Positions 4,609 to 10,389 of a DNA stretch of 64,000 bases are shown one piece after another. The notes under the pieces were generated by a model. That model was not told where the DNA came from. It was given only the letters and a program-made list of their open reading frames with translations, and searched no databases. Each line of letters begins with the position of its first letter. The first letter of the stretch is position 1. The stretch lies in contig MU657191.1 in the NCBI GenBank assembly GCA_026770575.1, positions 201,852 through 265,851 of the forward strand, in the 5' to 3' direction. The translations under genes were made by a program, and so were the position numbers. This DNA comes from Pelagophyceae sp. CCMP2097. Lineage: Eukaryota; Sar; Pelagophyceae.

Positions 4609-7562
4609 TTACGTCGACTTTCGCGTCTTTTTCTTCCGGCGCAGCGCCGGCAAAAAGCCGCCCTCGTCGGCCGGCACGAGCTCGACCTCGTCGTCCCGCG
4701 CCACCTCGGCCGCCTCGGCCGTCTCGGGCGACGCCGTCTCGGGCGACGCGGGCGACGCGGGCGTGCTCGAGAGCACGCCGTCGGCGCGCTCGAAGGATTG
4801 CTCGAGGACGCGGCCCGTGGCGTCAAAAGGGTCCCGCGCAACGCCGTACCGCAGCCGCTCCGGCCGCACGAGCTTGATGACCTGCGGAAACGGTCGGGGG
4901 GCGTGCAATTGCGACGGACGCAAGGGACGCACGTCTTGTGCGTGGCTCGAATTTGAGGACGTTTCGTCGTCGTCGTTCGGCCGCGCGCGGTACGCCGGCG
5001 CCGCCTGCAGCGTCGCCTCCTGGATGGGCGGCGTCGCGAGCATGGCCTCCTTGCGCGCGTGCTCGGCCTTCTTGTGCTGCGCCACCGTGCGCAGCGTGCG
5101 GGCGTCGAGGGCCGCGCCGGACCCGTACGCGATGGCCTGCGCGGCCACGAAAAGCTTCTCAATCTCGCGGCCGGAAAAGCCGTGCGTCGTCGCCGTCACG
5201 TCGGCGAGGCAGGGCTCGTCAACGTCGGCCGCGATGTTTAAAGCCGCGGGGCCCGTCCAGCGCGCCCAAAGACTGCGTCTGCGCCGATCCGAGAGGCGGC
5301 CAATATACTTCTCAAAGTACAGTTTGACCAAGTCCAAACGCGCTTCGTACGCCGGCAGGCCGAAGTACAGCGTCTCGTCGACGCGGTCGAGCACCGCCTA
5401 TTGAAGCGTTTTGGGGGTTCTCGAGGGGGCATGGACGTACCTCGTCGAGGTCGTCTGCGCGGTTCGTCGCGAGCACGAGCACAAACGAGTTGGTCGGCGA
5501 CCCCGTCTGGTACAGAAACGCGTTGAGCGCGTTGCGCATGTGCTCCGTCAGCCGCGCGCGCGACCGCGACGCCAGAAAAGCCTCTGCCTCGTCAATGAAG
5601 ATCAAAACACCCGTCTCGCTGGTTCGGGCCCAGCGGAAGAGGGCGTGCAGCGCGGTGACACCCTCGGACCCCAGAGGCCCGACGTCGCCGCCGGACATGA
5701 GAGCGTACTCCAGACCCGACGCGGCGGCGAGCTTGCGGGCGACCAAAGTCTTGCCCGTGCCCGGCGGCCCGTGGAGGAGCATGTGACGAAATGGCGCGCG
5801 GTTCGTCTTTGCGTTGCGCGTGGCGATCGAAAGCTGCAGCACGCGCTCGCGCAGGTCCTCGGGTAACACGACGCCGTGCAAGAATTCGGCCTGCTTGGCG
5901 GCGCCGTAGGCTTGGTCCGCCGCGAGCTTGTCCAAGTCCAAGGCGTACTCGGCCGCAATGCGCTTCAAATCGCCCGCCTCCCAAGCCACCAGAGCGCCGC
6001 GGTGCTTCGCCAGCGCCCTGGAAAAGACCCGCCGGAGCCTTCTGTACGCCTTGTTCGGCCCTCTGTAGAAAACAAACGCCGGCACGCCGCGGACCAGGCC
6101 GCGGTAGAGCAAAGTGCGGAATAAAAAGTGCAGCACGACCTTGGTCGTGGCCATGCGCTTCCTCGACGTCTCTCGCACGAGGCGCGGCCGGCCGAAGTAC
6201 GCCTCTGCGAGCGACCTCGCTAAAATGGCCGCCTCGCGCGCAAAGAAGCCGCCCCCCACCAATGCGATCATGGCGAGGACGAGAGTCAAAAGCGACTTTG
6301 GGTCGTCGATGAGCGTCGTCGCGCCCGAAGCGAAGAAGCCCGCGGCCACGGCAATCGCCTCTAAAACCTTTCGGCGGTCTTCGGCGGCTTGAGCCCGCAT
6401 CGCCCGGAGCCGCACGTCCTCGTTCTCGCGCTCCGTCGCCGCGCGCGCGGCGGCCTCGGCCTTGACTCTTTCGAGCTCGGCGACGCGCCGTAAAGCCTCG
6501 ACGCGCAGCTCGTCGTCCAAGCGCTGCCTCAGCACGGCCTCGTCCGTCGCGCGCCGGAGAGCCTCTTGCCTCTTCAGCGAATCCTCGGCGAGGACGAGGC
6601 CCGCGGCGTGGCGGTCGCGCGCGGCCGCGTCCTGGTCCGCCACACGCAAACGCGCGCGGCCGTCCTCCATGGCCAGCGACGCGTTCTCGAGGCGCTGCCG
6701 CATCAGCGCGGCCTCGCGCTCCGCCGCCGCCTCGGCTTCGAGGCGTTCCTCCTCGTGGACGAGTTGGGAACGGACTTCGGCCTCCATTTTGACCTTTTCC
6801 TCGTCGCCCGCCGCCGCCTCGCGCTTCAGCGCCGCCTCTAGAGCTTCGAAGCGGAGGCGCTGGTCCGCGGCCATGGTTTCCACGGCGGAAACGACGCCGT
6901 CCAAGTCGGCCTGCCTCTTGGCGAGCTCTTGGGCGGCGCCGACGCCGTGCATGAAGATGACGTTTTGGTCGACGTGGGCGAAATTCTCCACGTAGTGCAC
7001 CTCGGAAGCGCCGCCGACCACGGCCGCAAACGCGCGCCGGCCGACGTGCACCGCCTCCGGCAGCAGGTCCTCGACCTCTTCTCCGATCACCCCGAGCTGC
7101 CGCCGGCCCTCGACCGAGTCGAACTCGAGCTCGAAGAGGCGCAGAGGGATGGCGCGCACGACGGCGAGCATCGCAGACGTGTTCGCGCCCTCGAGCCTCT
7201 TGTACACCGCCGCCTGCGCACGAAGAGCGTCGACCACGCGACAGTGCGCATCAACAACGCACCGACGTGGTGCCGAGCGACACGGCCGCCTCGGCGGACG
7301 GCGCGTTCGCGTTCGCCGGCGGCGGCCCTTGCGGAGGCACTGGCGCCGTGGCAGAAGCCGTCAAAGCCGCCGGAGGCGCCGTCGACGCGGCGGCGACGTG
7401 AGCATCAGCGGCGGCGGCGGCTCCCGAAGGGCGCGGCGGCGGCGGCGGCGGCGCTCGCGCGACGGGCGGCGGCGGCGCCTTGAGCGGCGTGCCTGTCGCG
7501 CGCGACGCGGCGGCGCGGGCCTTGGCGAGTGCGTCGTTCGTCTTCGAGGACCCGCCGTGCAT
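4609..7562 (-). CDS. ATAD3: ATAD3-type AAA+ ATPase with N-terminal MYRF-like ICA (peptidase S74) domain
   Basis: ATAD3 is a mitochondrial inner-membrane AAA+ ATPase linked to nucleoid and cristae organisation. Exons 7562-7263, 7213-5441 and 5397-4609 give about 953 residues. In order there is a Pro/Ala-rich segment (1-95); an intramolecular-chaperone auto-processing domain like that of MYRF and phage S74 proteins (about 100-210), with Ser100 and Lys105, QLGVIGEEVEDLLPEAV and ENFAHVDQNVIFMHGVGA; a long charged coiled coil with the ATAD3 signature KRQEALRRAT; a hydrophobic segment; the PRLVRETSR motif; then the AAA module with Walker A GPPGTGKT (582-589), Walker B FIDEAEAF, sensor VLATNRADD and arginine-finger region VLDRVDETLYFGLP. 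Introns are 49 and 43 nt. An alternative start at 7727 would add a hydrophobic leader through a 48-nt intron with a weaker gtgatt donor. The ICA fusion is not normal for ATAD3. Confidence 0.88.
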
Positions 7563-8110
7563 CCGCGCCGCCGCCTAGAGCCCGCTGTGACGCGCCGTCC
7601 CGGAGCGCGCCATTTGAATCACCGACAGACGCTCGGAAGCTCGAGACGCCGGGAGGATGACCGCGCGCGCCGCGTCGGTGTTGCCGCGAGCGCATGCGGC
7701 GAGCGCCGCGAGCGCGAGCAGCAGCATCGCGTGGCCGCACAAGGGACGCTGATTCGAACCTCCACCGGACTGCTCTTCAGCGAGCGTCGTCGCTAAAAAG
7801 GATGCGGCGTCCGCGGCCGCGTCTACGTCAAAGAAAAAGCTCGTGCTCCGACCCTCGCGGCGCGGTCCAGGCGTCCGAGGCTACGGGTCGTTTCAAAAAA
7901 AGATGAGGATGCGCCTTGGAGGCACTATGAGATGGCGCGGAAGCATGGGACTGCATAGAAAGGGGTGCCTTCCTGCGTCGTGGGTGCGCGCTCGCGGGCG
8001 CCGGGGCCAGCCTCCGAGGTTTGAGCCGGATGACGCGGCGCCGTGGCGCCGTGAGAGTCGCGGGGGCCTCGGCTCGGGCGCCAGCGGGGGCGGCCTTGCG
8101 GGGGCCCACT
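7563..8110. other. intergenic stretch between ATAD3 5' end and AMBRA1-like 3' end
   Basis: No convincing gene. On the minus strand an ATG at 7727 opens a 50-codon frame with a signal-like start (MLLLALAALAACARG) ending in ctctag just before the ATAD3 ATG. It may be an upstream ATAD3 exon or leader. A tRNA B-box-like string near 7755 has no partner stems. The rest is probably 3' UTR of the AMBRA1-like gene. Confidence 0.5.
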
Positions 8111-10220
8111 TCACTCTTGCCGCGGCAGCGGCAGTACAGCGCCGCCGGCAGCGCGCGGCGGCGCGGGCGCGCGCGGCGTCATCTTGCAGATGCGGCCCTG
8201 CTTGGTGCCGTAGACGACTCCCGCGCCGGGCGCGGGGTGGAAGCGCGCGATGTTGACGTCGTCGCCAATCTCCTCGCGCGCGTCGACCCGCGCCATGTCG
8301 CCGACTCGGTAGACTACGGAGACAACGCGCGGCACGCCGTCGCCGAAGGTGCCGTCGCCGCCGCGCGAGTGGCCGAGGATGACCAACGACGCCGTAGGCG
8401 ACAGCTTGACGCTCGTGACAATGTCGCTTCCCGCCACGTCCCACTGCTGGTTGCCAGCAAAGCTGTGGTCGTCCAGCGCCGTCGCCTGCAGCAGCGTGCA
8501 GTCGACGTCGTCACCGGCCGCTTTGCTGGGCGGCGCTTTTTGCAGCGCGTCTGCCAGCGACACGACGACGAGGTGCGGCTTGAAGCGGCCCGCCGCGCGC
8601 GGCGCGTCGGCGCCGTCGGGCGCGGCCGCATCCGCGGGCGCGTCCCAGGACCGCCGCGCGCCTGCGGCGTTGCCGTCGAGCTGTCTCGGCGCCCCCGCCG
8701 CGAGCGGATCCACGACGCGCCACCACGGCACGAGCGCGCGCGGCGGCGGCGCTTCGGGCTTCGCCTCGGCGGAGGCGGCGCGCGCTCGCGGCGCGGCTCC
8801 CGAGCGGAAGGACCACCTCGGGGCCGGCGTCGGTGTCGTCGCTTGCGCGTCGCGACAAGTGCGCGGCGTGACGGCGGCGTCGGCGCCGTCGGTGTCGGCG
8901 CGCGCGCGCGCCGGTGGCCGCGCGGCCGCGCCGGCGGCGGCGACGTCGGCCTCGAAGGGCAGCCACAGCTCTGCGCACGAGCAGAGGAACTTGCCGTCAG
9001 GCGAAATGTCAAAGCCGCCGTCGTTGTAGAAGAGCGCGCGGCGCAGCACGCACCGCGGCGTGCCCGAGATAGCCTTGCCGTCGCCCTGCACGGGCAGCAC
9101 CATGGGCGGCGCCGCGGGCGCGGGCCGGGCGCCGCCGCCCATGGCGTCGTTGAACGACAGCGTGTCGTCGGTGGCGGCGCCGAGCGCCGGCCAGCTGTGC
9201 GTGCGCAGCGCCGGCGGCGGCGGCGGCGGCGCGGCCGCGCGCGGCGCCAGGCCCGCCATGGCGTGGTCCATGCCGCGGCCCGCCGACAGCTGCGCGCCCG
9301 ACGCCGCGCGCCCGAGGCGCGCGTGCCGGTTCGACGCGCGCGCAGCCTCGAGGTCAAAGTCGCAGAGCATGAGCTGGAACGTTATGCGCGCCTGCAAAGT
9401 GTGGTTGGGCACAAAAGCTCCGGAATGCAAAAGGCGACTCCTGCCGGGGATTCCGACGCGCCGTGCCGTTCCGCCGCTCGGCCTCTGTCGCGGCGGCGGT
9501 CGTGGCGTTGGCGTTGGCGGTGGCCGTGTTGTTCGCGGCGCCGACGATGATGGCGCTGCACCGCGGCACGAAGCTGAGGCAGCGGATCGGGTGCGCGTGC
9601 GTAAACTCCTGCCGCGGCGGGCTGCCAGAGGCGTAGTCCCAGAGGTAGATGGACGTGCCCGACGCAATGGCCAAGATGTCCACCGTCGGGTGGAACGACA
9701 GCGAGATGATTGCGCGGTCCTAGGTGGGGTGAGGCGTCGGACCGCCGCGCCGCGCGCGTCGCCGGTCGTTTTCGACGTCCGGCCGTCAGCGGCCGCCCCA
9801 GCAAGAGTTGGATTTCTTCCATTGTGCGATTTTTGGGTGCGGCGCGGCGTCCTTACGAGGAGCGTGCGGTGGAGGCAGGCCTGGGTGCGCGTGTCCCAGA
9901 TTCGCGCCTCGAAGCCGAGGCAGCCGGAGGCGACGATGTCTGGGTGCGTCGGGTGGAACTTGACCGTCCAGGGCGTGCGCGGGTGGCCCACGAGCGTCGC
10001 CTCGACGCGCCCGCTCGCAAAGTCGATGACCTTGACGGTATGGTCGCCGTGCGTCGACGCGAAGCGGCCTGCGGGGCAGGCGTCGGCGCTCCGGCGCGCT
10101 CGCAGCGCGGCCGCGCCACGCACGCCGGTCGTTGGAGAAGGCGACGGAGATGGTCGACTTGGTCGACGGCGGCAGCTCGAGGTACTCTGCGGAACAGTCG
10201 CAAACGCTCCGGAGCTCCAT
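8111..10220 (-). CDS. AMBRA1: AMBRA1-like WD40 protein
   Basis: AMBRA1 is a WD40 scaffold and cullin-4 substrate receptor that promotes autophagy initiation downstream of TOR. Exons 10220-10124, 10068-9857, 9719-about 9546 and 9391-8111 give about 587 residues. Family matches include LELPPSTKSTISVAFS, the repeat GHPRTPWTVKFHP followed by DIVASGCLGFEARIWD, then IISLSFHPTVDILAIA, ITFQLMLCDFD, GGFDISPDGKFLCSC and, near the C-terminus, DDVNIARFHP with VVYGTKQGRI. In animals these N- and C-terminal WD blocks form one split propeller; here a low-complexity Ala/Pro/Arg linker lies between them. Introns 1 and 2 are 55 and 137 nt; the intron 3 donor is uncertain (a gtcggc at 9545 fits phase). The long disordered C-terminal half of animal AMBRA1 is absent. 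Upstream coding exons around 10400-10925 could belong to this gene. Confidence 0.75.
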
Positions 10221-10389
10221 GAGTTCCTACCGCACGTGTCGCGACGCGCGTCGAGCCGCTAAGGCAGAGGCGCGGCAGGTGGGAAGTTTTTTTCGGGCCA
10301 GCACGACTCGAGCTGCGGCCTCTCCGAGGAGGGGACCCCCAAAGAGGCGTCGCGGCGGCAGAGGGGCGAAGCGCTAGACAAAGAGGGCG

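Follow-up and report, generated by a model that had tools for sequence, protein, structure and literature searches.

A gene on the minus strand of a 64,000-nucleotide stretch of Pelagophyceae sp. CCMP2097 (contig MU657191.1; we call the whole stretch the window and count coordinates from its first letter) encodes an ATAD3-type AAA protein in which an intramolecular chaperone auto-processing (ICA) domain of the Peptidase S74 type stands ahead of the ATAD3 coiled coil. Computation shows that this domain has the ICA fold, that its fusion to ATAD3 recurs in relatives, and that the catalytic positions of ICA domains are replaced in it. We consider the whole best explained, with reasonable though far from complete confidence, by an endomembrane ATAD3 paralogue bearing a lumenal, trimerising and probably catalytically dead ICA cap.

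The open frame from 7213 to 5441 encodes, in order, about 110 ICA-like residues, an ATAD3_N domain with coiled coil and membrane helix, and the start of an AAA domain, as a first-pass annotation of the window had read it. The protein belongs to the ATAD3 family by its ATAD3_N and AAA domains (Pfam scan), the latter with Walker A and B motifs as read. The ICA assignment made earlier holds for profile and fold: hidden Markov model (HMM) comparison, hhalign and predicted-structure comparison (single-chain models only) all matched the ICA/Peptidase S74 fold across the whole domain, the HMM match covering residues 125–237, of which the first two are encoded in exon 2. It did not hold for single-sequence scores: the window protein alone falls below the curated cut-offs of both Pfam Peptidase_S74 and MYRF_ICA. 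A genome-wide Peptidase_S74 search, which counts against our reading, gave seven matches, with the window gene not among them.

We extended the gene model at both ends, to 962 residues in five exons, with the following features:

7662..7727, minus strand: exon 1, 66 nt, signal-peptide-like start MLLLALAALAACARGNTDAARA; candidate, no transcript
7575..7661, minus strand: intron 1, 87 nt, GTCATC..CTCTAG; donor uncertain, with other donors such as 7622
7263..7574, minus strand: exon 2, Ala/Pro-rich linker, C-terminal end ..GTTS
7214..7262, minus strand: intron 2, 49 nt, GTGCGT..GCGCAG; frame restored, three homologues continuous, no transcript
5441..7213, minus strand: exon 3, ICA domain, coiled coil, membrane helix and first part of AAA
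6881..7213, minus strand: ICA (Peptidase S74-type) domain, residues 127–237 of the 962-residue model
6173..6847, minus strand: ATAD3_N (PF12037), coiled coil and membrane helix, exon 3 residues 123–347, E 3e-27
5441..5782, minus strand: first part of AAA, E 7.4e-21, Walker A GPPGTGKT, Walker B FIDEAE
5398..5440, minus strand: intron 3, 43 nt, GTACGT..CAATAG, based on P0026
4933..5397, minus strand: exon 4, end of AAA and part of what follows
4882..4932, minus strand: intron 4, 51 nt, GTGCGT..CCGCAG, based on P0026 and beyond the first-pass coordinates
4609..4881, minus strand: exon 5, C-terminal tail and stop

From the ATG of exon 1, eight in-frame GT..AG joins were found, and we picked 7662/7574 because homologues begin with a hydrophobic stretch and continue Ala/Arg-rich (for example P0013). 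The gene start probably moves: an ATG further downstream had been taken for it, and a signal-peptide exon at 7727–7662 likely lies upstream. The 49-nt intron 7262–7214 proposed earlier is plausible, since the frame is restored and P0001, P0011 and P0013 give an uninterrupted TSAxVY[KR]RLE at its site; no transcript spans it. P0026, named as an MMETSP transcript, is identical to the last 565 amino acids of the model and supports introns 5440–5398 and 4932–4882 only. As its sequence begins only at model residue 398, C-terminal to the ICA domain, it lends the ICA portion no support. Transcripts of this kind had been named at the outset as evidence against the fusion, and P0026 does count against it in this species; its source may be a 5'-incomplete transcript. 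Adjoining the gene, at 8111–10258 of the minus strand, is a 715-codon open frame with stretches that look WD-repeat-like by eye.

The fusion is not confined to the window. A homologue search scored the 7,990 candidates that had the most words in common and listed 120 of 321 matches; of 121 retrieved proteins, 27 contain the ICA domain by our own HMM, five of which (P0001–P0005) were used to build it. Two of the 27 are named as Chrysophaeum taylorii, P0001 and a protein short at its N-terminus, P0020. P0006, named as an MMETSP transcript, combines a hydrophobic start, ICA domain, coiled coil and AAA domain in one protein. An assembly artefact was considered and rejected: the fusion recurs in C. 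taylorii P0001 and in P0006, and an assembly error is therefore unlikely. The new architecture put forward in the first-pass annotation is thus well supported, and ATAD3 proteins with S74 domains, which it proposed to look for in other stramenopiles, do occur in relatives. The genome itself holds four ATAD3_N loci: C13 and C4, canonical by eye, C28, which is the window, and C51. The last (L011, G000:C51, about 852–2000) combines a hydrophobic start, a divergent ICA-like domain and a coiled coil across an intron of 52 nt.

A tree computed from the AAA domain alone contains 95 rows. Of the 29 ICA rows it includes 27, made up of 25 proteins plus the window and C51; P0009 and P0030 are absent. All 27 fall within one 35-row side with support 99/94, in a tree whose bootstrap had not settled and in which C51 is a long branch. 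Rows on the canonical side gave no match to the ICA HMM; one of these loci, C13, is identical across the tree columns to P0038 of Pelagophyceae sp. CCMP2097. The other eight rows of the ICA-containing side show no ICA domain. P0023, P0025, P0026, P0027, P0031 and P0073 start within or downstream of it; P0041 and P0075 are long members with no detectable ICA domain and count against the reading preferred here. These two have very long coiled-coil-like stretches, which may reflect ICA loss or another N-terminal module. Judged by titles and the opening of abstracts, no paper among those listed describes an ATAD3–ICA fusion, in a search with subscription journals mostly outside its coverage. We found no name for the ATAD3 subfamily to which the window gene belongs.

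Does the domain cut itself? In MYRF, cleavage is abolished by S587A and K592A (PMC8326128; here and below, PMC articles are cited for excerpts of their text), and orthologues keep Ser, Asp and Lys without exception (PMC3742443). The corresponding SDxxxK is present in 11/11 reference domains. The first-pass annotation had proposed Ser100 and Lys105 (its numbering) as the equivalent dyad and release of the Pro-rich N-terminus by autoproteolysis. The spacing of the two residues fits. In 10/10 hhalign runs, which share data and are not independent, it is instead Thr99 and Tyr104 that occupy the catalytic slots, with Ser100 and Lys105 one residue downstream. The VIA alignment places model residue 1 on MYRF 589, and its ungapped extension puts Tyr104 on K592, in a region where the model's first ten residues have a predicted local distance difference test score (pLDDT) of 59.

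Residues were counted in 24 members (the 29 ICA rows minus P0012, P0020, P0022, P0024 and P0032, which are split or partial). In the shifted register the Lys slot holds Tyr in 23 and Phe in one, and the Ser slot is variable, with Ser in only two. At the positions proposed earlier, Ser occurs in 8/24 and Lys in 5/24, with Arg replacing Lys in 8/24; Ser and Lys occur together in two, the window protein and P0011. The window protein has no Ser-Asp..Lys site; no Asp follows the Ser. In P0003, P0005, P0006, P0014, P0015, P0021 and C51, moreover, only 16–22 residues, mostly a hydrophobic segment, precede the domain, so there is little or nothing to release.

Some evidence does favour a working dyad. 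Ser is the most frequent residue at the Ser100 position, the Pfam S74 alignment (13–56 on 14–58) fits the Ser100/Lys105 register when extended ungapped, and so do the start points in 3gw6 (912) and 4uw8 (1265). The case that Ser100 and Lys105 lie one residue off the catalytic register is accordingly strong but not absolute on these alignments. We regard self-cleavage by this pair as very improbable, and the ICA domain as probably catalytically dead.

The N-termini suggest where the protein resides. A strongly hydrophobic N-terminus is found in 21 of 24 complete members (P0009, P0017, P0020, P0022 and P0024 were dropped as truncated, by our judgement) versus one of 57 canonical-side proteins (ids P0033–P0094 that start with Met and lie outside the ICA clade). 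N-x-S/T sequons are in excess before the membrane helix of the 29 ICA proteins, with 59 observed versus 26.1 expected by shuffling, or 44 versus 24.6 after a mask removing 15 conserved sites. After the helix there are 29 versus 38.7 expected. Canonical proteins (n = 55) have 18 versus 27.4 before the helix and 56 versus 59.7 after it. One aligned sequon is kept in 18/24 members. The hydrophobic starts and the sequon excess point to the secretory route and to a lumenal N-terminal half.

Several observations pull the other way. P0004, C51 and P0010 (3/24) lie below the hydrophobicity threshold, and signal peptides were judged by hydropathy alone. C51 is without the conserved sequon, which may be a helix cap instead of a glycosylation site, and the counts treat related sequences as independent. 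In some members, too, the helix is followed by another hydrophobic stretch, which could alter the topology.

The computed signal-peptide-like N-termini and sequon excess put in doubt the mitochondrial setting assumed earlier. Canonical ATAD3A is described as an inner-membrane protein with its coiled coils outside and its AAA core in the matrix (PMC10419812), and its N-terminus is described as extending to the cytoplasm (PMC13249166). The protein could still be mitochondrial, with the hydrophobic N-terminus serving to anchor or sort it and the ICA domain in the intermembrane space. We think this improbable, given how rare such an N-terminus is on the canonical side and the excess of sequons; C13 and C4 could also serve the mitochondrion.

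An unlikely but not negligible alternative is passage through the endoplasmic reticulum (ER) to the complex plastid or the membranes around it, directed by a bipartite sequence of signal peptide and Ala/Arg/Pro-rich linker. The host probably belongs to the ochrophyte algae, and in several members, including P0001 of Chrysophaeum, the hydrophobic start is followed by a long run of basic, Ala-rich sequence. P0003, P0005 and P0006 have no such run, however, and the sequon excess indicates a glycosylating lumen. Plastid targeting employs an aromatic motif at the signal cleavage site; where the window protein is presumed to be cleaved, no aromatic residue is apparent.

In the endomembrane reading, which we prefer, the signal peptide would direct the chain to the ER or to a membrane continuous with the ER, leaving the ICA domain and coiled coil in the lumen. 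The helix would span the membrane, and the AAA motor would be cytosolic. AAA motors are generally expected to remodel or extract membrane proteins. The ICA domain, lacking the Ser-Lys protease site, would be retained to form a trimeric cap and nucleate the coiled coil, with perhaps two ICA trimers per AAA hexamer. ATAD3 coiled coils are described as oligomerisation scaffolds (PMC10419812), ATAD3 is predicted to be hexameric (PMC13249166), and cleavage-deficient MYRF still oligomerises (PMC3742443). From these, and from the MYRF-like position of the ICA domain, we infer a lumenal trimer cap over a cytosolic motor; a role in assembly through trimerisation is likely.

The ICA domain of MYRF (PDB 7dc3) is alike in fold and length, and MYRF shares the order of ICA domain, coiled coil or leucine zipper, and membrane helix (PMC3742443, PMC8326128). 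Unlike MYRF, the window protein continues into an AAA motor and has no DNA-binding domain among its Pfam matches: exon 2 from the first-pass ATG gave no match and exon 3 none of the Ndt80 type, in a scan that excluded the 66-nt exon 1. Its ICA domain is also predicted to be lumenal, whereas the N-terminal side of MYRF is cytosolic (PMC3742443). The ICA domains of phage tailspikes and tail fibres (3gw6, 4uw8, 8hqz) are alike in fold and profile match. After cutting they are released and a stable trimer remains upstream (PMC8326128), whereas the window domain stands ahead of its coiled coil with the catalytic site replaced. Canonical mitochondrial ATAD3 agrees in coiled coil, membrane helix and AAA core, but no canonical-side row matched the ICA HMM and one of 57 has a hydrophobic start. 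In the window protein, ATAD3_N is matched from profile position 47 onwards, and what precedes this in the profile is absent or replaced.

Elsewhere in the genome, the seven Peptidase_S74 matches above cut-off (L001–L007; G000 contigs C70, C275, C263, C39, C157 and C613) all have the SDxxxK site (7/7). The open frames around five of them measure about 4,400 to 12,000 codons; L003 closely resembles the ICA domain of MYRF. The BFVD fold matches include S74 proteins from viruses of the green algae Bathycoccus and Pyramimonas, a possible source of the ICA domain.

ATAD3 is treated as a mitochondrial protein (PMC10419812, PMC13249166). We see an even chance that a second class of ATAD3, located in endomembranes, exists in pelagophyte algae and plankton relatives, with a lumenal phage-type trimerisation cap that lacks the protease and with threefold symmetry in the lumen joined to sixfold symmetry in the cytosol. 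If so, the recurrent secretory-type paralogue would be an ATAD3 motor moved to another membrane, and eukaryotes would have reused the phage tailspike chaperone in a further case besides MYRF. Because the chaperone seems to have been retained without its protease, nature would here have separated the folding role of the domain from its cutting role.
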